DNA from: Fulvivirga imtechensis AK7 | GTDB lineage: Bacteria > Bacteroidota > Bacteroidia > Cytophagales > Cyclobacteriaceae | NCBI RefSeq assembly: GCF_000331535.1 | Contig: NZ_AMZN01000051.1 | Coordinates: 1-64,000 of the forward strand | Length of the DNA: 64,000 nucleotides | Direction: 5' to 3' | Shown here: piece after piece, positions 2,105 through 18,900 of the stretch | Position numbering within the stretch: the stretch's first letter is position 1 | Layout of the letters: every line of letters begins with the position of its first letter | Made by a program: the position numbers and the translations under genes | Notes under the pieces: generated by a model | Databases searched by the model: none | The model's input: only the letters and a program-made list of their open reading frames with translations | What the model was told of the DNA's origin: nothing

Positions 2105-2429
2105 TGTAGTGAGGGTTTAGGTTATTTAAAATGGTTTTGAGATAATAGCCATTTTTGAAGACAATTAAGGTGTATTACCCAAGTGGTTATCTCATATTAC
2201 CACTTACTGATGAAAAGGAGAATGTATGAGCCCAAATAAAACACTATGACTTTACTGGATTATAAATATGCTTTCGTGCTTATTGTATTGATTATCAGTA
2301 GGAAATAGCGTGATGAAAATTGGTGGACTTTTCATCGTTTGCCTGAGGCGTATGTGTTAGAAATGGTTAGAAAAAAGTAGGTTCCAGCATCAACTGAAAC
2401 CTACATTATCTGACAAAACTTACTATTTA
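2105..2429. other. Intergenic, no gene seen
   Basis: Upstream region of the secreted esterase. It holds the receptor gene terminator (2371-2404) and the distal 6-bp target duplication TATTTA (2424-2429) of the mobile repeat. No open frame with coding character was found. Confidence 0.6.
2371..2404 (-). terminator. Intrinsic terminator for the TonB receptor gene
   Basis: Read on the minus strand this is GTAGGTTTCAG, a short loop, CTGGAACCTAC, then TTTTTT. It is a near-perfect 11-bp stem with a T tract in the orientation of the receptor gene ending at 2577. It lies about 170 bp beyond the stop codon; the 144-bp mobile repeat at 2430-2573 sits between them. Without the repeat and its duplication it would be about 20 bp downstream. 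Confidence 0.75.
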
Positions 2430-2573
2430 GTGTCTCTAAGAAAACGCCAATGTCTGCGTTACGTTTGCCCCAAAAATGCTCTCGTACCCCAGTACGCTCC
2501 GCTTTTTGGCACTTCATCCCGCTCTTTGGCGGGAACGTTTTCTTAAAGCCACTTAGAGTTTTCTTACAGCCAC
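2430..2573 (-). mobile_element. 144-bp MITE-like element, copy 1, at a stop codon
   Basis: The element begins GTGTCTCTAAGAAAAC on the plus strand and its other end, read inward on the minus strand, is GTGGCTGTAAGAAAAC, so it has ~16-bp imperfect terminal inverted repeats. It is flanked by perfect 6-bp direct repeats TATTTA (2424-2429 and 2574-2579; TAAATA on the minus strand). The proximal duplication contains the TAA stop (2577-2579) of the TonB receptor gene. Inside are a tandem duplication of GTGGCTnTAAGAAAAC and a hairpin TCCCGC-N6-GCGGGA. It is about 91% identical to the copy at 18687-18830. It has no coding capacity, so any movement would depend on a transposase elsewhere. Confidence 0.85.
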
Positions 2574-2576
2574 TAT

Positions 2577-5048
2577 TTATTTTATAGCAGGAAGGTCGAT
2601 CTTCAACTCTACAGAATAAAGCCTTCCGATGAATGGTGAAGCAGTAAATTCTCTGAATTCTGCATCGAACAGGTTAGTGACCTGACCGGAAACGGTAAAG
2701 ATATCATTGATATGGTACCCCACACCAAGATCAACATTCACAAAGCCTCCTAATGGGCCGTAGTTCCAGGTATCAGCGCTTCTGGCATCTTCCACCACAG
2801 GTACCCCTCTGTAAACAAGATCCTGTGTTTTTGCCGCGATCTGGAAGCTTGAGAAGTAGTCGTACTCCTGTACCCAACGGGTAAATACCGTTCCGAAGAA
2901 TTTATCACTGCTATAGTTCAGGCCTACTCCAAACTTATGGGTAGGTGCATTCACCAGCACATCCAGCTTATTTACCACACCATCTTTGTTGAAATCATTT
3001 TCCTCCAGGTTATCTTCATCTACAGAATAATCGAAGTAAGAGTAGTTAAAATCAAGATTCAGATTAGGGGTGAAACTGTAGTTAAGGCCTATGTCAAATC
3101 CGTAAGTGTTCACTTTCCCGAAGTTGACATAGGTGGCTACCAGACCCTGGTATACCGCATAAGCGTCCTGTACTTCTGATGTAGGCTGGTCACCTCTATG
3201 TGTGGTAACTCCTATTACCGTTACCGGGCTCAGGAAGTCTTCGGAGATATTGTAATATGCATTGGCATCCAGGAATAGCTTCTTAGCTGCTTGTCCTTTA
3301 TAGCCAATTTCAAAAGTCTGGATCTTTTCCACCTTCTGTTTCTCTACTTTTGAGCCATCTGCCAGTGTAAACCCTTCAGCATTGCCCAGGATCAGGCCTG
3401 AGAAAAGGTTGCCATACATGTTAAGAATAGTTGGTGCAGCTATACCCTGTGCGTAGGTCAGCCTGAATGAACCGTTGTTAACAGTTTTTACTATTCCTGC
3501 TTTCGGCACAAAGTTGAAGCCGTAGATCTCATGGTTATCACCTCTGAATGCAGTTGTTACTTTAAATCCTGATCCAAATTCACGCTCTAACTGTCCATAT
3601 ATGCCTGTTTGGTCTACTTGTATGTAGTCTTTTTCATTATTGTCCAACAGGTAGGTGCCGTGGCTGTTGGCGAGGTCGCGCTGCCACTGTGCTCCCAGCA
3701 CTATATTGAATTCGCTGAGTGTAGTATTGTATTGTACTTCGGCATTGTAACGCTGTGAGTCATCGATAAACCTGGCTCCGCTTGAGTAGGAATATTCACC
3801 CCTGGCTTCTGCATCAGGTAAGCCGGTATCTATGCCTATGTAGTATCTTTTTGTTCGCTCATCGATGGCATAGGTATCATCGGTTTTGCTGGTAGTCATA
3901 TAAGCCTGGGCGAACCAATGTGGTGAAGTATATTTCAACGAGTAATAGCTGATCTTCCAGTCTATGATCTGGTTCCGGCCCACGTTGGTGGGCGCCAGGT
4001 AGGTACTATTACTACCACCCCAACTGGCTATAATGTCGGCATCATCCGATACGTTGTAGTATAATGAGGCGCCCCCTCTAAGGAAACTGAAATCATTATC
4101 CAATTCAAGTTCTTCGTATCCTTCTTTGATACCATCCCGGCCGGGGTTGCCACTGGCATTTAGCCTGTCTATGTATACGGAATCGGCAAATTCAAATTCC
4201 TCGCCTTTGGTGTATTCTCCGGTGACCTTAATAGCCCATCTGTCGTTGAGCGCCTGGGCATGTCGCAGGCGCGCGGTGAGCATACTCTGATTACCTGCTC
4301 CGAGTGCGAAAGTGGTCCCTTCCGAGCTTCTGGGGTCTTTCGTGATGGTGTTGACCAATCCGTTGTGCGCATTGGGGCCATAAAGCGCTGCATTAGGGCC
4401 GAGGATAACTTCTATCCGGTCTACATCTTCCTTTATAATAGTCCCCAAAGGGCCGAAGGGCAGGCCTGTGGCTACCAGGGTGGCATAACGTCCATCGTTG
4501 ATCTGCAGGTTCTTGGAGTTAAAGTTGCTGTTAAAACCACGGATATTAATACCTGTACCAACAACACCTGATCTCACAAATTCTACGCCTTTTACACGTG
4601 CCAGTAATTCTCCCGGGTTGAAAGAAGGCAATTCGACAATTTGCCTCGAACTGATCAACTGGATGGTAGCAGGAGTTTCTGTAAGCTTTTCAGCCCTTCG
4701 TGTACCCGATATCACCACCTGATTGGATAAAAACAGGAGGGAGGGACTTAGGCTGATCGTTCCCAAATCGGTGATGTTGCCTGATACGGTAACTGACTTT
4801 TCCACCTCTTCATAGCCAACGAAACTGACTATTAATGCATATGAACCATCATCAACGTTAGATATGGTGAAGTTTCCGCTGAGGTCTGTAGTGGCTCCCT
4901 TTGTTGTTCCCTTTAGGGTTACATTAGCTCCCACGAGAGGCTCGCCACTGACTTCAATTACCTGCCCTTTGATACCTCCATCCTGCGCCTTTAACGAAAA
5001 GGATAACAGAAGCAAGAGCAGTGAACATATTGTAAAAAAATTCTTCAT
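2577..5048 (-). CDS. TonB-dependent receptor with CarboxypepD_reg-like domain
   Basis: An 823-residue outer-membrane receptor. A signal peptide (1-21, ending LKAQ) is followed by a carboxypeptidase-regulatory-like domain (about 24-105, GQVIEVSGEPLVGANVTLKG), a plug domain (about 115-235, with LLARVKGVEFVRSG and VILGPNAALYGPNAHNGLVN) and a 22-strand-type barrel to the C terminus. It is shorter than SusC proteins and has no SusD partner next to it, so it more likely imports a siderophore, cofactor or small ligand than a glycan. The substrate cannot be read from sequence. Its stop codon lies inside the target duplication of the mobile repeat at 2430-2573. Confidence 0.9.
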   Translation of the reverse strand: MKNFFTICSLLLLLLSFSLKAQDGGIKGQVIEVSGEPLVGANVTLKGTTKGATTDLSGNFTISNVDDGSYALIVSFVGYEEVEKSVTVSGNITDLGTISLSPSLLFLSNQVVISGTRRAEKLTETPATIQLISSRQIVELPSFNPGELLARVKGVEFVRSGVVGTGINIRGFNSNFNSKNLQINDGRYATLVATGLPFGPLGTIIKEDVDRIEVILGPNAALYGPNAHNGLVNTITKDPRSSEGTTFALGAGNQSMLTARLRHAQALNDRWAIKVTGEYTKGEEFEFADSVYIDRLNASGNPGRDGIKEGYEELELDNDFSFLRGGASLYYNVSDDADIIASWGGSNSTYLAPTNVGRNQIIDWKISYYSLKYTSPHWFAQAYMTTSKTDDTYAIDERTKRYYIGIDTGLPDAEARGEYSYSSGARFIDDSQRYNAEVQYNTTLSEFNIVLGAQWQRDLANSHGTYLLDNNEKDYIQVDQTGIYGQLEREFGSGFKVTTAFRGDNHEIYGFNFVPKAGIVKTVNNGSFRLTYAQGIAAPTILNMYGNLFSGLILGNAEGFTLADGSKVEKQKVEKIQTFEIGYKGQAAKKLFLDANAYYNISEDFLSPVTVIGVTTHRGDQPTSEVQDAYAVYQGLVATYVNFGKVNTYGFDIGLNYSFTPNLNLDFNYSYFDYSVDEDNLEENDFNKDGVVNKLDVLVNAPTHKFGVGLNYSSDKFFGTVFTRWVQEYDYFSSFQIAAKTQDLVYRGVPVVEDARSADTWNYGPLGGFVNVDLGVGYHINDIFTVSGQVTNLFDAEFREFTASPFIGRLYSVELKIDLPAIK

Positions 5049-5190
5049 AGTAGGATAGGGTTAATTGTTACCTCTAACCTAATCATTGCTGAGAGGGCAT
5101 TAAACCAGCATAAAAATAAGAAAGGGATGACTTTGAAGCTATTTAGCTTGTGTTTTTTATGTAACTATCTGTTTTATAGAAATTTATGTG

Positions 5191-6618
5191 CTAAAAATGT
5201 AGTGATGACTTTATTTCTTTGATGATGTGCGGAACATGTATCTGCAGGTCATCGAGAAGGTCTTGAATAACAGATGATTTGTGGTGGTTGGTCAGGTAAT
5301 CTTTGCCTGAAGTTGTTATAGCTTCAATCAACTTGTCCTCAGCTATTCGTCCTTCCATATACATTGACATTTCATAATACCACCTGATAGTGGGCAGGTA
5401 AATTGGTTTTTTCTGGTCTTCCCGGTCGCGTACAAGCAGTCCGTACCTTTTACAGGTATGTATCACCTTTTCATACTTTTCCTGCAGTAGGAGTGAATTG
5501 AGGTATGCCGTAAAGAAGATATACCATCTTTTGGCCAGTACATGCTCTTTGTTGATCCTCAAAAAGCTCTCAGCGTATCGCTCTCCATCCTGCGGCTGGT
5601 TGTTGAGGTTCAGGCACTTCACATAAAAAGCGACAAAGCCGATCTTATTGTGAAAGTTATGGGAAATTTTCATTTCTGTCATAGACTCCTTTAGCAGACT
5701 TAGGGCCTCGTCAATCTTTCCTCTTCTCAACAGAATAGAACTGAAATTGGTCAGGTATTGCAGATGGTCCGCATTTTTTTGCCGGATGGAGAGGTAGCCA
5801 TATTCTTCGGCCTGTTGAAGCACATCAAATTTTGAATGAAGCATCAGCCTGTTAGCATAATAGTTGTACAAGATCCTCCTGGAGTAGAAGAAGCCTTTGG
5901 CCAGCAGGCCGTCCAGATGGTCATAAAGCGTTTTCAGCTTATCAAATTCTCTATAGTTGAAGTACATGAAAGTAAGCCTGATGATAGCGAAATAGCGGTT
6001 GTTGCCATCCAGTTGTTCATTATAAAAGATGTCGGTGAGCCAGCTTTCCCAATGACGTGATTCCGTGTTGTTAAGAGAGTATTGATCGATGATATCTACG
6101 GTGGCCTGGTGTAGCTTCTGATTTACCTCCCGGGCCTTGTCATACGGATCTTTGTAGGCAGTGATGAACTGGTTAACGATCTTATGGTCATCATACCGGA
6201 GCCTGATCAGGAGAAAATGCCGGAAGTTGAGCATGAGCTCGTAGTATTTCATGAAATTATAGATGGGATGTCTATAGCTTTTGATGGTTTTGAGTAAAAG
6301 CAACTCATCTTCTGGCGTAATGGAGTCGGTCATGACCTTCCTGTCCATTTCATTGATCCATTCAAAGTGTTTGTCGACATTGATGTCGTCCAGCCTGGCA
6401 TCGATCCAGTTTTTGAGGTTGGTATATTTTCTTTTGTCGATGGAGGTGTCGTAGGACTCGGCTCTGTTGAAGTTATTGCTATTGTGGGCAATTTTTTCGA
6501 GGATGCTCTTTTTCTCTGGGTCTTCAAAATTTTCAACGCCCAGCAGATAAGATGCTTCATGAGGGAGTATCTTTTCTGCATATTCGCTAAACTTCTTTAG
6601 TTTCTTTTTAACGGCCAT
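5191..6618 (-). CDS. Uncharacterised cytoplasmic TPR-like helical protein
   Basis: About 475 residues, almost entirely alpha-helical. Repeated helix pairs such as NADHLQYLTNFSSILLRRGK and the following LLKESM segment resemble tetratricopeptide repeats in the C-terminal two thirds. There is no signal peptide and no enzymatic motif. I place the start at the ATG at 6618 (MAVKKKLKKF). The open frame continues to 6729, but that extra 37-residue stretch is encoded by the direct repeat 6638-6818 and reads as repeat-derived. No function is proposed; scaffold or regulatory roles are common for such repeats. Confidence 0.7.
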   Translation of the reverse strand: MAVKKKLKKFSEYAEKILPHEASYLLGVENFEDPEKKSILEKIAHNSNNFNRAESYDTSIDKRKYTNLKNWIDARLDDINVDKHFEWINEMDRKVMTDSITPEDELLLLKTIKSYRHPIYNFMKYYELMLNFRHFLLIRLRYDDHKIVNQFITAYKDPYDKAREVNQKLHQATVDIIDQYSLNNTESRHWESWLTDIFYNEQLDGNNRYFAIIRLTFMYFNYREFDKLKTLYDHLDGLLAKGFFYSRRILYNYYANRLMLHSKFDVLQQAEEYGYLSIRQKNADHLQYLTNFSSILLRRGKIDEALSLLKESMTEMKISHNFHNKIGFVAFYVKCLNLNNQPQDGERYAESFLRINKEHVLAKRWYIFFTAYLNSLLLQEKYEKVIHTCKRYGLLVRDREDQKKPIYLPTIRWYYEMSMYMEGRIAEDKLIEAITTSGKDYLTNHHKSSVIQDLLDDLQIHVPHIIKEIKSSLHF

Positions 6619-6637
6619 AATGGTTTGCTTCGTTTCT

Positions 6638-6818
6638 GATCTGCATAGATCCCTACTTGGGTCGGGATGACCGCCTGGTGGAGAGTAGATTACCTCCATT
6701 ATCTTGTCATCTCTCGTGTTGCTCCTCATGGTCGGGATGACCTGGCTTTGTAAAGCTTGTCCTTCATCGCGCGGTCATCTCGACTGTAAGGAGAGATCTA
6801 TTCATCTCTGAACTTCTA
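6638..6818. repeat. Direct repeat copy A (~180 bp)
   Basis: Starts GATCTGCATAGATCCC and ends with GAGAGATCTATTCATCTCTG plus AACTTCTA. Matches copy B at 6930-7099 with roughly 80% identity and several short indels. Both copies contain (G/T)TCGGGATGA/GGGATAAC-type and GCTCGT/GCTTGTCCTTCATCGC blocks. It sits directly upstream of the TPR-like gene and has no open frame of its own. Confidence 0.75.
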
Positions 6819-6929
6819 CCTTTAAATACATTCCCCCTAACGAAGGTTACTACCTGCCATTTTATTACCATAGCTATCTTCTTACCAAGAGCAAAGGCCA
6901 AAATGCAGTAGCACCTTTGCTGCGATCTT

Positions 6930-7099
6930 GATCTGCATAGACCCCTCCTTGGGTCGGGATAACTGCCTGGTGAAGAGCAAATTCCTCTATTATCGCGTGT
7001 TGTTCCTCATGTTTGGGATGTCCTGGCTTCGTAAAGCTCGTCTTTCATCGCCCGGTCATCTCGACTGCAAGGAGAGATCTATTCATCTCTGTGCTTCTA
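6930..7099. repeat. Direct repeat copy B (~170 bp)
   Basis: Second copy of the repeat at 6638-6818, same orientation, separated from it by about 110 bp. Its 3' part, TCATCTCGACTGCAAGGAGA then GATCTATTCATCTCTG, is the best-conserved block. No transposase, spacer regularity or terminal target duplication was seen. The rest of the 6619-7158 gap holds no gene. Confidence 0.75.
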
Positions 7100-7158
7100 T
7101 GACTGCTCGGTAGTGACACGTTTTCAATCCCATCATTTTCCATGCTATACCCGATTTA

Positions 7159-8103
7159 TTACCTTCCTCCAAGAAAATCAACAATAATCCTATTGAATAT
7201 ATCAGGTTTTTCGAAGGGAACAAAATGTCCGCATTCGCGGATCATTTTTAGCTGACTGTTCGGGAGTTGCTCGTGTCCTTTTTTTGCAATGTCGGCAGTG
7301 GTCACGGCTTTATGTAAGATCGGGTTTGGAATTAGCGCATCATTTTCACCATAAACCACCATAACAGGTTGCTGAAGATCCTTTAATTGTTGAAATACCG
7401 GCTCATCCAGCATTCCCGATACCCCTTTGGATATCGTCTTGCAGTATAGCATGAAATCTTTAGCGGCTGTCATCTTGATGCGATCCTGGATCATGAATTC
7501 TACATCGGCAGTCATTTTATAGAAGTTTAGCCCATAATTAAACCTGATCTGTTCCGGGCTGGCAGCGGCTACTGCCTCCGGTTTAAAAATCGACCTTAGC
7601 CAGATGGCTTCTTTCTCATTAAACGTTTCAAAACCTGCAGGTGCCGCGAGTATCAGCGATTCTACTTTTTCCGGATATTGTAGCGCTACGGTCATGCTTA
7701 CCTGGGCGCCCATGGAATGCCCGACCATAGTTACTTTTTCCAGCTTTAGCTTTTCAATAAGCTGATTGATCGATTGCGCGTAGTAGCTCATCGTGGCATG
7801 GGAAAGGCTTTTCGAAGAACGGCCATAGCCGGGGAGATCAATGGCGATACAGCGGTAGTGCTTTTTTAGTTCGGGTATGTTTTTCTGCCAGGAGGGGAGG
7901 TAGGTGGCCAGGCCATGCACAAAAATCAATGTTTTATCTCCCCTGCCTTCATCTACATAAGCAATGGTAGTGCTGTCGTTGATATCCAGGTAATGGGTTG
8001 TAAATGAATAGGGTTTAATAATGCTGGCGATGGTTCGTTCTTGAGACATAGCTGATAAGGAAATCAGTAATAAGCACAGAGAAAAGAGATATTTAACTTT
8101 CAT
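7159..8103 (-). CDS. Secreted alpha/beta hydrolase
   Basis: A 314-residue alpha/beta-fold hydrolase with a signal peptide (1-20, cut near AMSQ). The oxyanion motif FVHGL (61-65), nucleophile Ser130 in GHSMG, an Asp in VVYGENDALIP and a His in ECGHFVPFEKP give a complete triad. A helical lid lies between about 160 and 240. It is the last gene of a five-gene operon; its start overlaps the end of the acyl-CoA ligase gene by 11 bp, indicating translational coupling. Given the ligase and KAS III-like neighbours, an ester or thioester of an unusual acid is a plausible substrate, acting in the periplasm. That role is inference. Confidence 0.85.
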   Translation of the reverse strand: MKVKYLFSLCLLLISLSAMSQERTIASIIKPYSFTTHYLDINDSTTIAYVDEGRGDKTLIFVHGLATYLPSWQKNIPELKKHYRCIAIDLPGYGRSSKSLSHATMSYYAQSINQLIEKLKLEKVTMVGHSMGAQVSMTVALQYPEKVESLILAAPAGFETFNEKEAIWLRSIFKPEAVAAASPEQIRFNYGLNFYKMTADVEFMIQDRIKMTAAKDFMLYCKTISKGVSGMLDEPVFQQLKDLQQPVMVVYGENDALIPNPILHKAVTTADIAKKGHEQLPNSQLKMIRECGHFVPFEKPDIFNRIIVDFLGGR

Positions 8104-9583
8104 AATGCAATGTTTTTAAAGCTTTCCGATCGATTTTACCGCTATCATTTTTGGGAAGCTCATCGATGGTTACAAAGTATTTTGGTATCTTAAATTTAGC
8201 CAGTTTGTCACAGCAAAAGGATTGAATTCCATCAGTCTTGTATCCTTCCTTTATTACTATGTAAGCCTTGCCTACTTCACCCCATTTATCATCCGGTACA
8301 CCGACAACGGCTACTTCGCTCACCCCTTCAGCAGAGATCAGCACTCGTTCTACTTCAGCAGGGTACACGTTCTCCCCGCCGGAAATAAACATACACTTTT
8401 TCCGGTCGACCACATACAGGTATCCCTCATCGTCTTTTTCCATCAGGTCCCCGGTCCTGAACCAGCCATCACTGATCGCCTCTCTGGTGGCTTCTTCGTT
8501 TTGCCAGTAGCCGGGGGTAACCACCTCACCTCTGAGACAAAATTCACCTATCTCACCAGGCCGCACTTCCTGCATGTTTTCATCGAATAGTGCGGCTTCT
8601 ACATAGAAATTTGGCTTGCCGATCGACCCCAGCTTGCGTTCTGCATCCTCCTGGTGCAACGAAGTCAGGTTCGGGCCTACTTCCGTTAACCCATAGCCCT
8701 GTCTGATGCTGATGCCTTTGTTGTGCCAGCGCTTGATCACGGGGTGGGGCAGGGCTTCGCCACCTACAATGAAGTACCTGAGTTTTTCCAGTTTTACTTT
8801 ATCAAAAGCAGGCGCATCCATCATCATTTTAAGCATAGTTGGAACGCCCATAAAAACAGTGGACTGCTGTTGATCCAGCAGATTTAACAGGTGTTCTGCA
8901 TCAAATTTCTTAACAATGCCTACAGTAGCGCCCCGGTGGAGCATTGGGGTGAGCAGTACGTTCCACCCGCCGGTATGAAAGGCAGGCATGCAGTTGATGG
9001 TGTGGTCATTCGGGGTAAGCGCCAGGCTCATGGTGGTATTCAGGCTATTCCAAAATAGCATCTTGTAAGTATATATTGCCCCTTTCGGGAAACCGGTAGT
9101 GCCGGAAGTGTATAAAATGAATAAGGGATCATCTTCACGCAATGATACAGGCTCGGTTTCTTTGATAGCTATTTTTTCTATGAGTGCGGAAAGGTCCTCG
9201 AGTATTTCAGTATGGATCGACCTGGCGTTTTTTAACAATGCTACCTTTTGAAGAAATTGCCGATCGTGTAGTATGAGGGCAGGGCTACAGTTTTCTATTA
9301 AAAAATCTATCTCGGCAGGTGCCAGCCTGTAGTTGACTGGCACGATAATAATACCACACTTCTGAGCTGCTCCAAACAATGTGACCAATTCCAGGCTATG
9401 TTCTGCGACCACTAGTACCCGATCTCCCTTGGTTACATTCCAGGCCCTGAGCAAAGCCACAAGTTTAATGGCGTTGGTATTTAAATACGAATAAGTGAGG
9501 TTTCGTTCCGTTTCATACTCCTCAATCGCAATCTTGTCAGGATTGTAAATGGCCCACTTGCTTAACCAGTCTTTAGTGTACAT
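8093..9583 (-). CDS. Acyl-CoA ligase (AMP-binding, ANL superfamily)
   Basis: A 496-residue adenylate-forming enzyme that should activate a carboxylic acid to its CoA thioester. Visible ANL motifs are the P-loop LYTSGTTGFPKGA, GYGLTEVGP, GWFRTGDLMEKDDEGYLYVVDR (quoted in part) and the C-terminal catalytic lysine motif PKNDSGKIDRKAL. It has the length of soluble medium/long-chain or aromatic acid ligases. It overlaps both neighbours by 11 bp, following a symporter gene, so a likely task is trapping an imported acid as its CoA ester. Substrate chain length cannot be read from sequence. Confidence 0.9.
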   Translation of the reverse strand: MYTKDWLSKWAIYNPDKIAIEEYETERNLTYSYLNTNAIKLVALLRAWNVTKGDRVLVVAEHSLELVTLFGAAQKCGIIIVPVNYRLAPAEIDFLIENCSPALILHDRQFLQKVALLKNARSIHTEILEDLSALIEKIAIKETEPVSLREDDPLFILYTSGTTGFPKGAIYTYKMLFWNSLNTTMSLALTPNDHTINCMPAFHTGGWNVLLTPMLHRGATVGIVKKFDAEHLLNLLDQQQSTVFMGVPTMLKMMMDAPAFDKVKLEKLRYFIVGGEALPHPVIKRWHNKGISIRQGYGLTEVGPNLTSLHQEDAERKLGSIGKPNFYVEAALFDENMQEVRPGEIGEFCLRGEVVTPGYWQNEEATREAISDGWFRTGDLMEKDDEGYLYVVDRKKCMFISGGENVYPAEVERVLISAEGVSEVAVVGVPDDKWGEVGKAYIVIKEGYKTDGIQSFCCDKLAKFKIPKYFVTIDELPKNDSGKIDRKALKTLHYES

Positions 9584-11102: not shown

Positions 11103-11105
11103 ATT

Positions 11106-12095
11106 TTAATACTTTATAGCCGCACAGGCGAAAGCCAACCCGCCACCGGAGCCTATCAAAAACAACATATCTCCACGCTGGATCTTGCCATTTTCAATGG
11201 CATCGTTCAAAGCCATGGGAATACAGGCCGATCCGGTATAGCCATAATACTTCATGATCTTATGCGCCTTGCTGCGGTCTACACCCAAACGGTCCATTGT
11301 TTCATCGATAGAGTTGAAATTCAGTTGGGTGATCAGGTATTGGTCAATATCATCGGGTGTGATGCCGAGCCGTTCACACATCTTCAATGTCATCTCCGTC
11401 CACATCACCGGATTGATCTCTTTAGGGAACTTATGTACAAACTTCAACTTATGATCCATCCTGCTGATCACATCGGCATTCACCGGTTCATGTGAGCCAC
11501 CACTGTAGATGCCCATCCACCCGTTGTATTCACCCTTGGTTTTTAGCTCGCTGGTGATAAAACCATTGTCACTGTTGTTCTCGGCTGATAGTATTACTGC
11601 ACCTGCACCGTCTGCAAAGAGCGTGACTGTTTTTTTATCAGACATATTGAGGTGTTTGCTCATGGCGTATCCGCCCAGCACCAATATGTTGTTGTACCGT
11701 TCATCAGCGGTAATATACTTTGCTGCTACATCAAAGGCAGTTACAAAACCGGCACAGGCAGTGTTGAGGTCGAAAGTGCCGGCATTGACAGCGCCAAGCC
11801 GGTCTTGCAGCACGGCAGCGGTGGAGGGGGAGATGTACTCCGGTGTATCCGTAGCTACTATGATCAGGTCGAGGTCACTGGCATTCAGGACGGCCCGCTG
11901 GAGTGCCTGCTCGCTGGCGCGTTGGCACAGGTCAGCTACCGACTCATTTTCTGCACACCATCGCCTTTCATAGATATTTACATTCTCTCTTAACCACCCG
12001 TCTACATCTTCCCGCAGAAGTTCAGAGAAATAGCTGTTAGGGATTACCTTTTCAGGTACATAGGCACCTGTGGATCTTATAATTGCTTTGCGCAT
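11106..12095 (-). CDS. KAS III-like (FabH-like) protein with non-canonical triad
   Basis: A 329-residue thiolase-fold protein from the ATG at 12095 (MRKAIIRSTG); an upstream in-frame start at 12143 would overlap the reductase gene. The active-site Cys114 is present in DLNTACAGF and the C-terminal GSGGGLAFACA loop is recognisable. However, the catalytic His of the usual HQAN motif is Thr256 (ITQLN), and the Asn of the usual GNTS motif is Tyr286 (GYTGSA). Canonical KAS III uses Cys-His-Asn for decarboxylative condensation, so this protein probably does a different reaction, for example acyl transfer, or non-decarboxylative condensation. It is the second gene of the operon. Confidence 0.85.
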   Translation of the reverse strand: MRKAIIRSTGAYVPEKVIPNSYFSELLREDVDGWLRENVNIYERRWCAENESVADLCQRASEQALQRAVLNASDLDLIIVATDTPEYISPSTAAVLQDRLGAVNAGTFDLNTACAGFVTAFDVAAKYITADERYNNILVLGGYAMSKHLNMSDKKTVTLFADGAGAVILSAENNSDNGFITSELKTKGEYNGWMGIYSGGSHEPVNADVISRMDHKLKFVHKFPKEINPVMWTEMTLKMCERLGITPDDIDQYLITQLNFNSIDETMDRLGVDRSKAHKIMKYYGYTGSACIPMALNDAIENGKIQRGDMLFLIGSGGGLAFACAAIKY

Positions 12096-12117
12096 ATATT
12101 CTTTGATTTCAGAATAG

Positions 12118-12858
12118 TTAAATTGAAACAGCCCCGTCCACACTCAACACTGTGCCACTGATAAATGCAGCATCGCTTGAGGCAAGAAAGGCGTAGGCAT
12201 TGGCGATATCTTCAGGCTTTCCGAGCCTGCCCAGCGGTGTTTTGCCTACCATCATATTGATCACCTTCTCTGGGATGGTCTGTATCATGTCTGTGGCAAT
12301 GAAACCGGGGGCCACAGCATTGACGGTGATATTATATTTGCCCAACTCCTTGGCCAGCGTTTTGGTCATGCCTATGAGTCCGGACTTAGTGGCGGCATAA
12401 TTGGCCTGGCCGAAATTGCCGTAAAGCCCCACCACAGAGGAGGTGTTGATGATACAACCAGCGCCTTGTTCAATCATGTGCGGTACTACAGCCTGAGTGC
12501 AGTTGAATACCCCTGTAAGATTGACATCGATCACCTGCTGCCACTCGGCCAAAGTCATTTTTTTGATCGTGGCGTCACGCGTGATACCCGCATTATTGAT
12601 GAGGATATCTATTTTTTTATAGGTATTTATTACCAGTTCTGTAGCACGGACAACTGATTCCGGGCTTGTGGTATCTACTTTTATAAAGCTGATACTGCCA
12701 TTTCCTTTCAGGCTTTCCAGGGCGTGCTGGCCGGCATCATCGCTGATGTCCCATATCACCACCTGAGCCCCTTCTGTTAAAAACTTACTGGCGGAGGCAA
12801 AACCTATTCCTCGTGCACCGCCTGTAATGATGGCTACTTTATCTTTTAATTTTTTCAT
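12118..12858 (-). CDS. fabG: FabG-like 3-oxoacyl reductase (SDR)
   Basis: A 246-residue classical short-chain dehydrogenase. It has the NAD(P) motif TGGARGIG (13-20), NNAG, catalytic Ser in NTSSVVG and YAATK with Tyr and Lys, and the C-terminal SVDGAVSI. Close to 3-oxoacyl-ACP reductase and acetoacetyl-CoA reductase; the two are not separable here. It heads an operon with a KAS III-like protein, symporter, acyl-CoA ligase and hydrolase, so it is probably a pathway-specific paralogue rather than the housekeeping fatty-acid enzyme. The gap to the next gene start is 22 bp. Confidence 0.88.
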   Translation of the reverse strand: MKKLKDKVAIITGGARGIGFASASKFLTEGAQVVIWDISDDAGQHALESLKGNGSISFIKVDTTSPESVVRATELVINTYKKIDILINNAGITRDATIKKMTLAEWQQVIDVNLTGVFNCTQAVVPHMIEQGAGCIINTSSVVGLYGNFGQANYAATKSGLIGMTKTLAKELGKYNITVNAVAPGFIATDMIQTIPEKVINMMVGKTPLGRLGKPEDIANAYAFLASSDAAFISGTVLSVDGAVSI

Positions 12859-13374
12859 GCTTTTCTACTTTGATGATCCAAAATAGGGTATTGAAGACAG
12901 AGCTTCAGTTGGGGATAAAATTGGTGTGTGTTGACTTTTTTGATTATGTTGCTGGAGTTTTATTTTAATTGCTGATTTACAGTGATTTAAAATTGATTTA
13001 TGAGGGGTGGACTTTAAAAGTTCAATTAGACATTTTCCGCTACTAATGAATTTTAATGTATACCTGATCGGGTATATTTTTGATCAGACGTGGTATGTTT
13101 ATACAAGAGCTAAAGTATATATGTATGACCGGTGGGCCGGATTGTACGCTCCGCTTTTTGGCACTTCACAAGCCTGGACCTTTGACTTTGAGTTTCCTTA
13201 TAGACCCTTATTAGTGAATTTTACTCCTTTTTATAGGTAAAATTACCTATGCCTTAATAGTTGAAAACCTTTCTTTTGCTTCAAAAAAGCCGTTTATGAC
13301 ATTTTAGGGGAATAATCCCCGGGCAGAAATTTATTTTTCATTTGTAAGTTGCATTGTCAATAGAAATCAATTTT
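12859..13374. other. Intergenic region with repeat fragment and small hairpin
   Basis: Divergent region between the fabG operon and the small genes to its right. It holds a 25-bp fragment of the mobile element (13144-13168) and a perfect GGGGA-ATAA-TCCCC hairpin (13307-13320), 55 bp before the start at 13375. No convincing TAnnTTTG promoter was found. An open frame at 13007-13240 runs through the repeat fragment and looks non-coding. Confidence 0.5.
13144..13168. repeat. 25-bp fragment of the 144-bp mobile element
   Basis: GTACGCTCCGCTTTTTGGCA plus CTTCA is identical to 2492-2516 inside element copy 1. Neither terminal inverted repeat nor target duplication is present, so this is a decayed relic or a chance-retained core. 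Confidence 0.6.
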
Positions 13375-13644
13375 ATGAAGACTATTCTATTTGTTGTGTT
13401 GGTTGGAACTATGGGTCTTTCACCTATGCCTGATGCAGATGATCACGGGGTGCAAATACAGCACTCCTCAGCGGCTAAACCTTCCAGCTCGTCCTCCTCT
13501 AAGAGGGCAAAGAACATGGAACTTTCTTTAACAAATAAAGAAGATGCTGTAATCAGCAGGCAACAGGAGATTGAAGGGTATAGAACAAGAGGCCGGATCC
13601 ACCTGTTGAATAATGGCTACCCCGGAAGCAAAAGCGTGAACTGA
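13375..13644 (+). CDS. Small secreted protein of unknown function
   Basis: About 89 residues from the ATG at 13375 (an in-frame start exists at 13354). The N terminus MKTILFVVLVGTMGLS resembles a signal peptide. It is followed by a serine-rich stretch (KPSSSSSSKRAK) and a charged region. No family recognised. It begins a run of three short same-strand genes. Confidence 0.5.
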   Translation: MKTILFVVLVGTMGLSPMPDADDHGVQIQHSSAAKPSSSSSSKRAKNMELSLTNKEDAVISRQQEIEGYRTRGRIHLLNNGYPGSKSVN

Positions 13645-13673
13645 AATAATGTAGAACCAAATTTTTTAATGTA

Positions 13674-13907
13674 ATGGAAGAAGCACGAAGCATACTCATT
13701 ACCTACAGAGGCAATATGAAAGGCCAGCGGTATATGGTAGATACTGGTAAAAGAGAGGTTCATGACCTGTTTAACGTCAAAACTAACTGCCAGATCAATG
13801 ATATAATGGAAGATGGTGGAGACAGACCTTTTCCCTCTTTAATTTCTGCCCATAAAGCAGGTTATCGTGACTGCATCTGGTGTATCGGAGGTTCAAGACG
13901 AGATTAG
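13674..13907 (+). CDS. Small unknown protein with CxxC near C terminus
   Basis: 77 residues, soluble, beginning MEEARSILITYRGNMKGQRY. The C terminus ends DCIWCIGGSRRD, with a CxxC pair that could bind metal or be redox-active. It is 29 bp after the preceding small gene and on the same strand. Family not recognised; coding status rests on the open frame, context and non-random composition. Confidence 0.45.
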   Translation: MEEARSILITYRGNMKGQRYMVDTGKREVHDLFNVKTNCQINDIMEDGGDRPFPSLISAHKAGYRDCIWCIGGSRRD

Positions 13908-13984
13908 TTTTGGGTTGGGTGATCCAAGCGAATGGATGGGATGGTTAATATAGCCTCCCGTTCATTTTATTTTATTAAAGGATA

Positions 13985-14053
13985 AAAAGGTCTTTTTATT
14001 TTTATTTATCAAATCCAGTCTGTATTTTTGAATAAATGAATTAAAGACCTTTT
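13985..14053 (+). promoter_or_regulatory. Inverted repeat in the leader of the small membrane protein gene
   Basis: AAAAGGTCTTT (13985-13995) and its exact complement AAAGACCTTTT (14043-14053) are separated by 47 bp of AT-rich sequence, ending 14 bp before the ATG at 14068. It could be an operator pair or an RNA stem. Function is unknown. Confidence 0.35.
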
Positions 14054-14067
14054 AATCTTTTAATGAA

Positions 14068-14358
14068 ATGGGAGCATTAATAAGACGTTATAACAGTTGG
14101 ACAGAGACACTGGAATTTAACAGATTGCTGGTCATGGCAGTCATTATCCTGATACATACATGCGTGGTGGTGCCGCCCACATTACTTCTTATGCTCCATG
14201 CAGATGCCGGGGCCATACCTTACCTGGTCATGACCATTTTTTCATTTATGATCCTGGTTTCTAACCTGGCCGTAATGCCTACACGTGTTACCATTTCAAT
14301 TTTTGTATTGAGCACGATAGCTCATCTGATGATCGTAATTTATTGCCTGGTAGGGTAG
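14068..14358 (+). CDS. Small three-helix membrane protein, unknown function
   Basis: 96 residues with a polar N terminus (MGALIRRYNSWTE) and three hydrophobic segments at about 20-42, 50-68 and 73-95. No known motif. It is followed directly by a strong terminator (14394-14431), which supports it being a transcribed gene. It lies next to the NO/O2-response cluster, but no functional link can be shown. Confidence 0.6.
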   Translation: MGALIRRYNSWTETLEFNRLLVMAVIILIHTCVVVPPTLLLMLHADAGAIPYLVMTIFSFMILVSNLAVMPTRVTISIFVLSTIAHLMIVIYCLVG

Positions 14359-14393
14359 TTGTAAATATTAACTTAATCCTTTTAGTTTTTAAT

Positions 14394-14431
14394 GGCTGTC
14401 ATCTATGCCGTCTGATGGCAGCCGTTTTTTT
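14394..14431 (+). terminator. Intrinsic terminator
   Basis: GGCTGTCAT (14394-14402), a 12-nt loop, ATGGCAGCC (14415-14423), then a T tract. One G-T pair in a 9-bp stem. It ends the gene at 14068-14358; the truncated haemoglobin gene converges from the other side. Confidence 0.8.
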
Positions 14432-14437
14432 AGCCTT

Positions 14438-14827
14438 TCATAATAGAGGTTGACTTCCTGACTGGCGATAGGCGTTGATTTTCTTTTGAAACATTTCAGA
14501 CATCAGATAGGCACGGTTTTTTGCTTCTTCAGCTTTCGGTCCGCTAAAGAATTCATCAATAGTTTGGTTGAAGAGGTGCAGCCATTGTGTAAAATGTTTA
14601 TCAGACACAGGTAAATCATAATGTTTGAGGAAAGGGCTCCCCTTATAGGTTTGACTGGCAAATAGCACCGAGTCCCAGAAGGTGTACATTTTCTGAAGGT
14701 GAGGGTGCCAGTGTCCCCTGATCCTGCTTTCGAAAACCGGACCCAGAAGGTCATCATGCCTGACCTTCAGGTAAAAATGGTCTACCAGGATCTTTATTTC
14801 AGCTAGTCCCTTAATGTCAACAGCCAT
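14438..14827 (-). CDS. Group III truncated haemoglobin
   Basis: 129 residues, the size of a group III (trHbP/Ctb-type) truncated haemoglobin. Recognisable parts are the B helix LVDHFYLKVRHDDLLGPVF, the HWHPHLQKMYTFW region and the proximal haem ligand His78 in DKHFTQWLHLF. Group III globins in other bacteria respond to NO or modulate O2 supply. It is directly downstream of an Rrf2 regulator and a hemerythrin gene on the same strand (2-3 bp gaps), so it is very likely co-transcribed and under that regulator. Confidence 0.88.
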   Translation of the reverse strand: MAVDIKGLAEIKILVDHFYLKVRHDDLLGPVFESRIRGHWHPHLQKMYTFWDSVLFASQTYKGSPFLKHYDLPVSDKHFTQWLHLFNQTIDEFFSGPKAEEAKNRAYLMSEMFQKKINAYRQSGSQPLL

Positions 14828-14829
14828 AA

Positions 14830-15261
14830 TTAAGTTTTTAGAAATACAAGTCCTTTGTCCAGATCCTTGGCAATGTGCTGAATGGAAGTCTTTTCCAGCA
14901 TAATGCGTAATGACTCGCGGATACTTTTAAATTCATTGTGTATCGGGCACGGCTTTTTTTCAGAGCAAACGTCAACCCCCAGTCCGCAGCCTGTAAATAG
15001 CTTATCACCATCAATGGCAGTTACAATATCGATAAGACGAATATCGTGGGCTCCTTCTTCCACATAAAATCCACCATGTGGGCCTTTTGTAGATTTAACA
15101 ATGCCCAACCGGCTCAGGTTCTGAAGTATTTTGGCAGTAAATGGCTCGGGCGCTTTAATGTGTTTGCAGATATCCTTAATACCTGCTTTTTTGCCTGATG
15201 AACTGACCGAAACAATATATATGACGGCCCTTATGCCATATTCACATGCCTTTGAAAACAT
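14830..15261 (-). CDS. Rrf2-family regulator, NsrR/IscR-like with three Cys
   Basis: 143 residues. An N-terminal winged helix (MFSKACEYGIRAVIYI, then DICKHIKAPEPFTAKILQNL) is followed by the Fe-S ligand segment with Cys92, Cys99 and Cys105 (GCGLGVDVC...KPC). Rrf2 proteins with this layout sense NO, O2 or Fe-S status through a [2Fe-2S] or [4Fe-4S] cluster. It sits between the hemerythrin and truncated haemoglobin genes, which favours a nitric-oxide-sensing (NsrR-like) role. Whether it also controls the divergent MFS gene is open. Confidence 0.85.
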   Translation of the reverse strand: MFSKACEYGIRAVIYIVSVSSSGKKAGIKDICKHIKAPEPFTAKILQNLSRLGIVKSTKGPHGGFYVEEGAHDIRLIDIVTAIDGDKLFTGCGLGVDVCSEKKPCPIHNEFKSIRESLRIMLEKTSIQHIAKDLDKGLVFLKT

Positions 15262-15264
15262 TCT

Positions 15265-15753
15265 CTATTTCTTTTTATCCCAAAAAACATCATTCCATTC
15301 ATCTTTAAAAGAGATATGTTCATTATTTATTTCATTCCCGAGCTTGTCAAGTGCTGCTTCCGAACACACCTCTTGTATATGATTGAAGAGTTCACGTTCT
15401 TCAAAACGAATATGATTTTCCAGCAGCTCTTCGATCAATCCCAGGCTCACCTCACACTTTTCAGGTTTTGATTCCAGTTGGTTGTAAAGCTTTCTTAGCT
15501 TTCTATGCTGACTCAGCGCCTTTTTTATTAAAGGATCTTGTTCATCTAAAAGAGTGAATACCATACGTTCTTCCCAGGCAAAGTGATCAAAGAGGTGTTC
15601 TGAAAAATAGTACTGTACATAGTTTTGCATCCTTCCAGGGGAGATACCTCTGTTGAAACCTGTTCTTATTTTCCAGCATAATAACAGACCAAAGTGATGA
15701 TCTTTTGATAAAGCTACCAGTGAGGGATGTCTTCTAATGGGTGTTCTATTCAT
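15265..15753 (-). CDS. Hemerythrin-like (HHE) protein
   Basis: About 162 residues from the ATG at 15753 (MNRTPIRRHPS); a start at 15768 is also possible. A four-helix hemerythrin fold is indicated by SKDHHFG, HFAWEERMVF, QHRKLRKLY and HIRFEERELFNHI, supplying His and Glu ligands for a di-iron site. Such proteins bind O2 or NO, or help repair nitrosatively damaged iron centres (RIC/YtfE family). First gene of the three-gene unit with the Rrf2 regulator and truncated haemoglobin. Confidence 0.82.
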   Translation of the reverse strand: MNRTPIRRHPSLVALSKDHHFGLLLCWKIRTGFNRGISPGRMQNYVQYYFSEHLFDHFAWEERMVFTLLDEQDPLIKKALSQHRKLRKLYNQLESKPEKCEVSLGLIEELLENHIRFEERELFNHIQEVCSEAALDKLGNEINNEHISFKDEWNDVFWDKKK

Positions 15754-15848
15754 ACTTGCACAAATCATTTCCGGGTACGCTCAGCGCAAATATAACGTTA
15801 GTGAATAGAAGATAAAAAAGTCCTGTAAGTTAGTTTGATAAAAACTGT

Positions 15849-15879
15849 GAGATTTGGAAGGAGATCGATGTCAAATCTC
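15849..15879. promoter_or_regulatory. Inverted repeat upstream of the MFS gene
   Basis: GAGATTTG (15849-15856), 15 bp, CAAATCTC (15872-15879): a perfect 8-bp inverted repeat 12 bp before the MFS start, in the region divergent from the hemerythrin operon. It may be an operator or an RNA hairpin covering the start. Confidence 0.4.
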
Positions 15880-15891
15880 TAAATTTAAGCG

Positions 15892-17073
15892 ATGAAGGTA
15901 ATTAGCCGAACGGTTTGGGTACTGTCCCTTGTCAGTTTTTTTACAGACATTTCAAGCGAAATGCTGTATCCGGTGATGCCTTTGTATTTAAAGAGCATCG
16001 GTTTTTCAGTTGTTCTGATCGGAGTGTTAGAAGGCTTTGCAGAAGCCACAGCAGGATTGAGCAAAGGTTATTTTGGTAAATTATCGGATGTACAGGGAAA
16101 GAGGCTGCCTTTTGTGCAGCTTGGATATGCTCTTAGCGCCATATCAAAACCCATGATGGCAGTTTTAACGTGGCCTTGGTGGATATTTTCTGCCAGAACG
16201 ATCGATAGATTAGGTAAGGGAGTCAGAACGGGGGCCAGGGACGCCCTATTGGCAGGAGAGGCGCCAGGCAGATCACGCGGTGAAGTATTTGGTTTTCACC
16301 GGACTATGGATACTTTTGGAGCGGCATTGGGTCCTACGCTAGCGCTTGTTTTTTTGTACTTAAATCCAGGTTCGTACCATATGCTGTTTTACCTGGCGTT
16401 CATTCCGGGTGTAGCAGGTGTGTTGGGTACCCTGGCCATTAAAGAAAAGAAGATCAATATTGTCAGAAAGAAGGCGGTGTCTTTTTTTAGCTTCATTCGC
16501 TATCTCCCCACAAGTAGTGCCGCGTATAAGAAGTTGCTATCAGGCCTTTTGGTATTTACCTTGTTCAATAGTTCTGATGTTTTCCTTCTTCTTATGCTCA
16601 AACATCACGGAATTAGCGATACTATGCTCATAGGTATGTACATTTTTTACAATCTTATTTTTGCTGTATTTGCTTACCCCCTTGGAAAAGTGGCGGACAA
16701 TATCGGTCTTAAAAAAATGTTTATTGCAGGCTTGGCCTTCTTTAGCATAGTCTATTTTGGTATGGCATATTTTAAAGATCAGGAAATGTTTTTTGTTCTG
16801 TTCTTTTTATACGGTGTCTATGCGGCTTGCACAGAGGGTGTTTCCAAGGCATGGATAAGCAATACCTGTAAAAAGGAAGATATGGCAACGGCAATAGGTA
16901 CCTACGAGGCTTTTCGAAGTATTGCCACATTACTGGCCAGCTCGCTTGCAGGACTCATATGGTTTTATGTTAGTCCGAAGGCCACCTTTATTACAACAGC
17001 AGTGGCGGTTTCCCTTTTAATCATTTACTTCATCAACATTGAAGAAGTGCATAGTTCGGCAGATCATACCTAA
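15892..17073 (+). CDS. MFS transporter
   Basis: 393 residues, about twelve transmembrane segments. The segment TWPWWIFSARTIDRLGKGVRTGARDALL and DRLGKGVR/GEVFGFHRTMDTFGA resemble a group of uncharacterised major-facilitator permeases. It is divergent from the hemerythrin/Rrf2/truncated-haemoglobin unit, so it may export or import something connected with NO or oxygen stress; this is inference. Its TAA stop (17071-17073) is the first part of the TAAGTA duplication flanking the mobile element. Confidence 0.82.
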   Translation: MKVISRTVWVLSLVSFFTDISSEMLYPVMPLYLKSIGFSVVLIGVLEGFAEATAGLSKGYFGKLSDVQGKRLPFVQLGYALSAISKPMMAVLTWPWWIFSARTIDRLGKGVRTGARDALLAGEAPGRSRGEVFGFHRTMDTFGAALGPTLALVFLYLNPGSYHMLFYLAFIPGVAGVLGTLAIKEKKINIVRKKAVSFFSFIRYLPTSSAAYKKLLSGLLVFTLFNSSDVFLLLMLKHHGISDTMLIGMYIFYNLIFAVFAYPLGKVADNIGLKKMFIAGLAFFSIVYFGMAYFKDQEMFFVLFFLYGVYAACTEGVSKAWISNTCKKEDMATAIGTYEAFRSIATLLASSLAGLIWFYVSPKATFITTAVAVSLLIIYFINIEEVHSSADHT

Positions 17074-17188
17074 GTAGTGGCTTTAAGAAAACATTCTCGC
17101 CAAAGGGCGGACGAAGTCCCAAAAGCGGAGTTCCGTACAGTTGTACCAATATACTGATAGTCAGATAATTATTCAATTCCCTGCTTCA

Positions 17189-17333
17189 GTCATCCCGTCT
17201 GTCCCGAGCCAGGACTCGGGGGAAGATCCTGGATCTCCTCTCTACTGGCTGTGACTGAACTTCAGCCTCTGCCAACGGATCAGGGGGATCCTGAATATTT
17301 TCTCCGTTGCTCTGCGAAAATTTCAGCATGACG
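17189..17333. repeat. Palindromic GTCATCCC...GCATGAC repeat inside element copy 2
   Basis: Bounded by GTCATCCC (17189) and GCATGAC (17333), with internal hairpin CCCGAG-N6-CTCGGG (17203-17220) and inverted GATCCTG / GGGATCCTGAA blocks. It belongs to the class of palindromic intergenic repeats also represented at 41277-41363. Confidence 0.55.
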
Positions 17334-17361
17334 TGGTGGTTTATGATTGCTGTTGCTCCTC

Positions 17362-17437
17362 TGCTTCCTCTGTGGTTAATGATGGTGTAATGTCATTATC
17401 CTCAAAATCAACTAAAAAAGTTGTTGGATGCCTCGGA
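17362..17437. repeat. Intergenic repeat, copy 2 of the family at 12-111
   Basis: Shares ATGGTGTAATGTCATTATCC and TCAAAATCAACT...AAAGTTGTTGG...CCTCGG with the window start. It lies just before the right part of the split mobile element. Confidence 0.6.
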
Positions 17438-17573
17438 TGAGCATTTTTGGGTTAGCGTAACGCAGACATTGGCGTTTTCTTAGAGACACTAAGTATTCAA
17501 ACATCACAGTGAACAAAATGCCTTTTAGGTGTTTATACTACTGAGCACGAAAATAATAGACGTATATGTTCCT

Positions 17574-18683
17574 ATGAATGAATTTCTTGAAAAGACCTAT
17601 TATAACAATACGGTGCAGGACTACCTGATTGTGATAGGGGGCATATTGGTGGCACTATCCATCATGAGGCTTTTTAAGGGTATTGTCATCACTCGGTTGA
17701 AGAAATGGGCCGCGAGTACAGCCAATCATGTTGATGATTATGTGATCACCACCATCGATAAGTTTATCATACCTGCCGTTTATGCCTGGATAGTGTACTT
17801 TGGGCTGAGTTATCTGACCCTGCATCCCAGGGTTCAGGATATTTTATCTGTTGCAATCACTGTGATGGTAACCTTTTTGGTCATCAGGTTTGTATCATCT
17901 ACCATTTTACAATTACTCCGGCATTACGTCAGAAGACAGGAAAATGGCGAAGAAAAGGTAAAACAGCTTGGCGGTGTTATACTGATCATTAATGTTTTTA
18001 TCTGGGTCATGGGGCTGTTGTTCTTCTTCGATAATATGGGCTACGACATTACAGCCGTTATCGCAGGATTGGGTATCGGTGGTATCGCCATTGCTCTTGC
18101 AGCACAAAATATATTGGGTGATCTGTTCAATTATTTTGTGATCTTCTTCGACCGGCCTTTTGAGGTAGGCGATTTTTTGATCATCGATGATAAACTGGGA
18201 GTAGTTGAATATATCGGGATCAAAACCACCAGAATAAAAAGCCTGTCGGGTGAGCAACTGGTATTTTCCAACAGTGACCTCACCGGATCCAGGATACATA
18301 ACTATAAAAGGATGCAACGGAGGAGGGTGCTTTTTAATATTGGTGTCACTTATCAAACATCATATGAAAATCTAAAAAGGATACCGGGGGTACTCAAGTC
18401 AGCAGTAGAAGACCAGGAAAATGTGGAATTTGATCGGGCTCATTTCAAAGCTTATGGAAATTCCAGCCTGGATTTCGAAATTGTTTATTATGTATTATCC
18501 TCAGATTATAACATATACATGGATATTCAGCAGGCGATAAACTTCCGCATATTCGAAGAATTTAAGAAAATGGATGTTGAGATAGCTTACCCGACAAGAA
18601 CATTGTACTTAATGAATGGGGATGGAGAAAAGATGACAGGTGATGAGGCGATGAATTGGAGCGCACAAAATAGGAATCAATAA
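17574..18683 (+). CDS. MscS-family mechanosensitive channel
   Basis: About 369 residues from the ATG at 17574; a GTG at 17529 is in frame but less likely. Hydrophobic segments near residues 16-32, 55-72, 80-105 and 130-150 lead into the pore-lining helix, visible as AVIAGLGIGGIAIALAAQN, followed by the MscS beta domain (DRPFEVGDFLIIDDKLGVVE). It should release solutes on hypo-osmotic shock from the inner membrane. Its TAA stop lies in the TAATTA target duplication of element copy 3. Confidence 0.9.
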   Translation: MNEFLEKTYYNNTVQDYLIVIGGILVALSIMRLFKGIVITRLKKWAASTANHVDDYVITTIDKFIIPAVYAWIVYFGLSYLTLHPRVQDILSVAITVMVTFLVIRFVSSTILQLLRHYVRRQENGEEKVKQLGGVILIINVFIWVMGLLFFFDNMGYDITAVIAGLGIGGIAIALAAQNILGDLFNYFVIFFDRPFEVGDFLIIDDKLGVVEYIGIKTTRIKSLSGEQLVFSNSDLTGSRIHNYKRMQRRRVLFNIGVTYQTSYENLKRIPGVLKSAVEDQENVEFDRAHFKAYGNSSLDFEIVYYVLSSDYNIYMDIQQAINFRIFEEFKKMDVEIAYPTRTLYLMNGDGEKMTGDEAMNWSAQNRNQ

Positions 18684-18686
18684 TTA

Positions 18687-18830
18687 GTGTTTGTAAGAAA
18701 ACTCTAAGTGGCTTTAAGAAAACGTTCCCGCCAAAGGGCGGGAGGAAGTCCCAAAAAGCGGAGCGTACTGGGGGAAGTGAGCATTTTTGGGGCGAGCGTA
18801 ACGCAGACATTGGCGTTTTCTAAGAGACAC
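18687..18830 (+). mobile_element. 144-bp MITE-like element, copy 3, at a stop codon
   Basis: Begins GTGTTTGTAAGAAAAC and ends GTTTTCTAAGAGACAC, giving imperfect ~16-bp terminal inverted repeats. Flanked by TAATTA at 18681-18686 and 18831-18836; the first includes the stop codon of the MscS gene. Internal hairpin TCCCGCC-AAAG-GGCGGGA. Same length and orientation relative to the upstream gene as copy 1, about 91% identical. Confidence 0.85.
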
Positions 18831-18854
18831 TAATTAGTTCTTTTCTAAACTAAT

Positions 18855-18895: not shown

Positions 18896-18900
18896 GGCAT

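Follow-up and report, generated by a model that had tools for sequence, protein, structure and literature searches.

A Non-Autonomous MITE Family of Fulvivirga imtechensis AK7 with a TANNTA Target Site and an Excess of Copies At and Just Past Stop Codons

Results

Three Elements Abut Stop Codons in the Window

The window, which is the whole 64,000-nucleotide stretch of Fulvivirga imtechensis AK7 DNA that was analyzed, contains three copies of a short inverted-repeat element, each located at the 3′ end of an open reading frame (ORF). The names of the ORFs (TonB-receptor-like, MFS-like and MscS-like) are taken from an earlier, sequence-only reading of this DNA. The features are listed by copy.

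2577-5048, minus strand: putative TonB-receptor-like ORF upstream of copy 1, TAA stop at 2577-2579
2574..2579, unstranded: copy 1 duplication, gene side, 6 bp, includes the TAA stop at 2577-2579
2430..2573, minus strand: MITE copy 1 (144 bp), running from the L end at 2573 to the R end at 2430
2537..2573, minus strand: doubled L end in copy 1, with its two motifs at 2558-2573 and 2537-2552
2424..2429, unstranded: copy 1 duplication, distal side, 6 bp, TATTTA on the plus strand and TAAATA on the gene strand
15892-17073: putative MFS-like ORF upstream of copy 2, stop at 17071-17073
17071..17076, unstranded: copy 2 duplication TAAGTA, gene side, includes the stop at 17071-17073
17077..17489, plus strand: MITE copy 2 (413 bp), single L end, interrupted by another repeat
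17147..17432, unstranded: foreign repeat within copy 2, borders approximate
17490..17495, unstranded: copy 2 duplication TAAGTA, distal side, 6 bp
17529-18683: putative MscS-like ORF upstream of copy 3, stop at 18681-18683
18681..18686, unstranded: copy 3 duplication TAATTA, gene side, includes the stop at 18681-18683
18687..18830, plus strand: MITE copy 3 (144 bp)
18687..18723, plus strand: doubled L end in copy 3, with its two motifs at 18687-18702 and 18708-18723
18831..18836, unstranded: copy 3 duplication TAATTA, distal side, 6 bp

The earlier description of the window was accurate: the three copies are present, each is bordered by perfect 6-bp repeats that differ between copies, the proximal repeat contains the TAA stop of the upstream ORF in 3/3 cases, and the gene-facing end is the L end each time. 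It had overlooked that copies 1 and 3 have a double L end, made up of two 16-bp end motifs whose starts are 21 bp apart. The terminal arms of copy 2 span 18 nt and are 89% complementary. The foreign repeat in copy 2 (17147-17432) belongs to a second dispersed family with partial matches at 17 further places in a 2.03-Mb sample of the genome.

The Elements Form a Family of Hundreds of Copies

The window repeats are members of a non-autonomous MITE family with hundreds of copies in the F. imtechensis AK7 genome. The MITE is ~120–160 bp long with ends GTGNCTNTAAGAAAAC, one of which usually is doubled, and lacks its own transposase. Alignment of 28 copies across 146 columns revealed a short element with terminal inverted repeats and conserved ends. 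A search of the genome for the end motif plus TAANTA with ≤3 mismatches produced 234 + 236 (470) matches compared to 0 + 1 for the reversed control, and TANNTA-flanked ends with ≤1 mismatch numbered 173 + 193 (366) versus none in the control. Thus, with 470 end-motif/TAANTA matches against a single control match, the family is not a product of chance. Moreover, all 40 of the candidates that were scored, among 351, matched in a DNA search of the genome, and a hidden Markov model (HMM) built from 26 copies gave 205 matches in the 2.03-Mb sample, 114 of them above 40 bits. The proposal that the repeats are a non-autonomous inverted-repeat element was borne out.

The same ends also enclose another interior (TCACAACTTATCGTCAT...) at C14:22781(-), C14:74874(+), C45:24212-24554 and other places in the sample of this genome, as well as at L076; two or more interiors with no relation to each other thus occur between these ends. 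A copy at L061:1376-1516 has an interior that is inverted relative to its own ends.

A DNA similarity search of 37 relatives, including 14 congeners, gave no match (0/37). The end pattern was matched in 8/148 genomes of the bacterial family, with F. imtechensis counted, but three other genomes each contained one match to the control pattern and single end-pattern matches therefore carry little meaning. Relatives of full or nearly full length are present in two other genera (genomes G106 and G159). The relative in G106 (E = 4e-30, 142 bp) has TATTTA at both sides and a double L end; that in G159 matched with E = 8e-27. The double L end occurs with identical 21-bp spacing in two genera (L144:1375-1411 in G106; 18687-18723 in the window).

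Insertion Duplicates a 6-bp TANNTA Target

Flanking 6-mers were identical in 37/129 end pairs, of eight kinds, in a count in which inner-end and cross-copy pairs were included. At loci that were fetched regardless of their flanks (L001-L051), identical flanking 6-mers were found in 17 end pairs, 16 of which were TANNTA. Reconstruction of 42 insertion sites gave TANNTA, mostly TAATTA, with weak neighbor preferences for Y before and R after the site. Transposition with variable 6-bp duplications, as proposed from the three window copies, accordingly was upheld, the duplications differing between copies; the TAANTA consensus was too narrow, the actual target being TANNTA. A larger set of 67 copies was assembled for positional analysis by a rule that accepted flanking 6-mers with ≤1 mismatch and at least three of four TA dinucleotides, and the TANNTA content of this set is therefore partly by construction. 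Perfect flanks were present in 46/67 of these paired copies.

Copies Are Enriched At Stop Codons and in the Next 20 bp

The 2.03-Mb sample comprised contigs picked from those with matches. Genes were called with a hexamer model, which yielded 1612 genes in 2,031,767 bases. The placed set was the 67 copies with paired flanks, decayed copies being left out, and expected counts were derived from hexamer-weighted, unoccupied TANNTA sites. Twenty-four of the 67 copies overlapped stop codons compared to 7.8 expected (p = 2.6e-7), one truncated an ORF, and 42 were elsewhere between genes. The overlap was retained when the window copies were removed (21/64, p = 7e-6). The interval 0–20 bp past the stop held 11 copies versus 3.8 expected, composed of 10 copies at 9–17 bp and the single truncating copy. 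Jointly, 35/67 copies were at a stop or within 20 bp of one compared to 11.6 expected (p = 8e-11). There was no enrichment at 21–60 bp (5 vs 6.2 expected), 10 copies were located at 61–150 bp (9.5 expected), and 17 lay beyond 150 bp where 39.6 were expected (3 against 13.3 at 151–400 bp and 14 against 26.3 in the far-or-none class). The enrichment at stops did not differ from that near stops (p = 0.21). As the stop and 0–20 bp bins are about equally enriched, the bias is toward gene ends. Convergent gaps were over-used (16/67 copies vs 189/1797 sites) and divergent gaps were under-used (9/67 copies vs 478/1797 sites). Copies at stops did not differ from the remainder in age as judged by HMM score (p = 0.46).

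The excess at stops was unevenly distributed between sets. Stop overlap was 18/42 in the first batch and 6/25 in the second (p = 0.064). Nineteen copies comprised 12 flank-unselected copies and seven from loci that were chosen by a TAANTA flank: 1/12 of the former, on other contigs, was at a stop, which is no excess, and 4/7 of the TAANTA-selected loci were at stops. Overall, the stop excess is real in the pooled sample, is uneven between sets, and extends beyond stops. The element does not target stop codons or recognize them. The rule suggested by the three window copies, namely insertion at stop codons with a fixed end toward the gene, fails genome-wide: 42/67 paired copies lie away from stops, one truncates an ORF, and among the 24 copies at stops the L end is toward the gene in 13 and the R end in 11.

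Insertion Over a Stop Codon Retains the Stop in Two Registers

The 24 copies at stops are divided equally between two registers. In register 1 (12 copies), the stop codon occupies bases 1–3 of the duplication. In register 2 (12 copies), the TA of the stop is the last two bases of the duplication and the first G of the element completes the codon as TA|G; the reconstructed original codon was TAA in seven cases and TAG in five. As the target has TA at both ends and the first base of the element is G, insertion over a stop keeps the end of the reading frame. Thus, the earlier view that insertion can keep the stop codon was sound, and it applies in two registers to 12 + 12 of the 67 copies.

Predicted RNA Structure

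The transcript of the element had been suspected to be structured, and RNA from the four strands tested is predicted to fold better than shuffled sequences (z −3.1 to −3.8), in agreement with this suspicion. Copies 1 and 3 include a terminator-like hairpin, TCCCGCC...GGCGGGA, with a T-rich tail. The T tail serves one strand only, which in the window is the strand opposite to the transcript of the abutting gene. The idea that the element is an instant 3′ UTR, read as a terminator for the upstream gene, consequently finds no support in copies 1 and 3, whose hairpin points against that gene. The covariation term was nil (0.1) with two-sided change in only 2/32 pairs, and no Rfam family matched at gathering score in positions 1-20000 of the window.

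A Similar-Ended Insertion Sequence in Persicobacter

An insertion sequence (IS) with ends similar to those of the MITE is present in Persicobacter sp. CCB-QB2 (G172) in four copies of 1884-1885 bp with GTG...CAC ends. Its duplications are TAAATA, TAATTA, TAATTA and TAATTA. The transposase matched NF033593 (ISNCY_1) with 339 bits (cut-off 325) and scored 19.8 with PF01609, just under the cut-off of 23; two of the four copies have an in-frame TAG. The right end of this IS is identical to the MITE L end at 18/21 bases, and its own two ends agree in 11/18 bases only. The ISNCY_1 element shares with the MITE the GTG...CAC ends, a TAAGAAAA-like core and 6-bp TANNTA duplications, but is an autonomous element of 1.9 kb whereas the MITE has no transposase.

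A partner IS in the same genome is usual for a MITE but is not a requirement. In F. imtechensis, an assembly that is a draft of 225 contigs in which an IS may be unassembled, there was no NF033593 transposase, no IS5_1 transposase and no match to the Persicobacter transposase. The single PF01609 match (L142) is unrelated, lacks matching ends and was rejected as the partner. End pairs located 0.9–5 kb apart proved to be clusters of MITEs instead of autonomous ISs, and self-comparison of the genes in the first 1.24 Mb disclosed no repeated IS. Genomes G042 and G157 are rich in the same ends, and no close ISNCY_1/IS5_1 transposase was found in either. NF033593 scored above cut-off in 1/148 genomes. 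As no such transposase was found in F. imtechensis, G042 or G157, the link to ISNCY_1 comes from a single genome. An IS with similar ends was thus found in Persicobacter and none in F. imtechensis itself. Loci in G017 with matching ends contain fragments of other transposase genes, have only 43 bp in common, and were discarded.

Eighteen related loci were scanned for 6-bp duplications with inverted ends. Among seven candidates, three had TANNTA duplications (TAATTA, TACTTA and TATTTA) and were IS5_1 (NF033578) according to NCBIfam. These elements, from the same bacterial family, resemble the MITE system in a related transposase and in 6-bp TANNTA duplications in three examples, in a scan that covered 6-bp duplications only, but differ in their ends (GGGTCTGCTG..., GTCAACCCTG...). 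They are located at L188:1335-2974, L194:1398-2855 and L201:1233-2872.

Related Elements in Other Genomes

The relative in G157, a genome of another genus, has recently spread, with 39 ends at 99–100% identity. The ends listed are at or near contig ends, for example L258 and L259, and the body of the IS to which these ~39 near-identical ends belong is not assembled. TANNTA was outside the end at 20/20 fetched sites, as the search pattern demanded. At up to six of the 20 sites that were read the element appears to break an ORF, and in three of these a Pfam domain is truncated. The junction cuts through a sugar transporter (L260) and a GH92 enzyme (L273), and an asparagine synthase (L263) also is incomplete. 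An FtsX-like ORF (L257) keeps its C-terminal domain and two broken ORFs have no domain. Gene breakage in G157 (6/20) exceeded that in F. imtechensis (1/67) with p = 0.0005, or 0.036 when only the three are counted, in a contrast that involves both a different element and a different genome, with G157 genes called by the model trained on F. imtechensis. TAG was at the junction in 3/20 cases, of which one (L258) is possibly a natural stop. In G042 and G106, 24 loci were read: eight had perfect duplications and two had a stop overlap on the visible side.

Comparison with empty sites had been proposed as a check. Searches with joined flanks returned four junction-spanning matches, among which there was no clear empty site. 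MscS orthologues at 70–71% were present in three congeners, and the one 3′ end that was viewed had neither the element nor TANNTA at the stop.

Discussion

Very probably, the repeats are a MITE of an ISNCY_1/IS5_1-like IS, and selection has filtered the positions of its copies. The family would have been spread by a DDE transposase of this type, making a 6-bp staggered cut at TANNTA that gives rise to the paired 6-bp duplications. The 21-bp spacing of the double L end, shared between two genera, suggests two transposase binding sites. With an element that starts with G and a target that has TA at both ends, a stop is retained in the duplicated TAA/TAG or rebuilt as TAG. Copies that disrupt genes or promoters would then be selected against, and the shortage in divergent gaps and the excess from the stop to 20 bp beyond it may be the outcome. 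As stop copies and other copies do not differ in age, age gives no sign of the selective filter, which on its own also does not readily account for the missing enrichment at 21–60 bp past the stop.

That absence is in line with a preference of insertion itself, besides survival, for gene 3′ ends within ~20 bp, which would act in addition to TANNTA, for example close to terminators or opened DNA. The 35/67 copies that overlap a stop or follow it by no more than 20 bp, compared to 11.6 expected (p = 8e-11), are in keeping with such a preference, and the sequence that follows occupied sites is slightly better folded (−9.5 vs −7.1 kcal/mol, p = 0.046, uncorrected), but this value is the smallest for seven features and fails correction, the best 30-base hairpin is no different (p = 0.24), the preference is not clearly seen at the G157 sites, and a largely similar pattern is expected from selection against damage to genes and promoters. 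This insertion preference is considered unlikely, and attraction to terminator hairpins was set aside on the results for the seven features. It is equally a long shot that the transposase is steered to gene ends, from the stop to 20 bp beyond it, for example by termination-linked DNA opening, with G-first ends that are harmless in two registers; if so, the family would have found a self-made safe harbor without one fixed attachment site. Machinery that recognizes the stop codon, or translation or transcription termination, and places one fixed end toward the gene is very improbable, despite the 3/3 window copies and the stop excess with (24/67 vs 7.8) and without (21/64) these copies: 42/67 copies are elsewhere, orientation is 13:11, the 0–20 bp interval is equally enriched, stops are overlapped at only 1/12 flank-unselected loci and 2/24 loci in G042/G106, and a related element appears to break genes in G157. 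As a rule, stop targeting already is refuted.

The predicted folding, and the terminator-like hairpin that copies 1 and 3 carry, might also denote a structured RNA or terminator that is retained by selection for a 3′-end function, with transposition incidental. This is just as hard to credit as recognition of the stop, given a T tail that serves one strand and runs against the abutting gene in the window, the 13:11 orientation, the nil covariation term with two-sided change in 2/32 pairs, and the lack of an Rfam match in window positions 1-20000. The short, palindromic, intergenic character of the repeats and their hundreds of copies are reminiscent of REP-type sequences, which a Y1 transposase (RAYT) would move with no target duplication, but the paired 6-bp duplications that differ between copies refute this origin, which has next to no chance of being correct; REPs are not known to have such target duplications.

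Short repeats with comparable properties are known in other bacteria. QMITE2 of Coxiella burnetii is 150–190 bp and is located mostly at gene 3′ ends or between genes, like the MITE described here, but has 7–11-nt duplications with no stated motif and includes a GTAG REP (PMC5896051). The preference of MITEs for 3′ ends thus already is known, the functional annotated genes affected by QMITEs having 3′-end insertions according to the authors of that study (PMC5896051). ERIC, RUP, Correia and BrickBuilt likewise are short, inverted-repeat, mainly intergenic elements, some of them with hundreds of copies (up to 711 for ERIC), but neither a TANNTA target nor the ends reported here are described in the available text (PMC10969869). 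IS1272 of the IS1182 family has a form in which the left-end side is tandemly duplicated, resembling the double L end, but it produces no target site duplication (TSD) and replaces inverted repeats (PMC5678879). The IS1202 family is characterized by outer ends 5′-TGT and by TSDs of 3–5, >15 or 0 bp (PMC10132070), and membership is excluded by the 6-bp duplications and GTG ends of the MITE. The end sequences of the MITE were not found in the literature searched, nor was any article that joined MITE, Cytophagales, transposase and inverted repeat.

With the MITE of an ISNCY_1/IS5_1-like IS as the preferred reading, the striking pattern of three copies at three stops becomes a testable rule on how mobile elements become harmless, in which a TA-NN-TA target and a G-first end together leave stop codons intact by geometry. 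The analysis also provides a 6-bp TANNTA duplication signature for ISNCY_1/IS5_1-type elements of one Bacteroidota family, together with one matching autonomous IS, and extends the MITE family, with members of full or nearly full length, to two additional genera.
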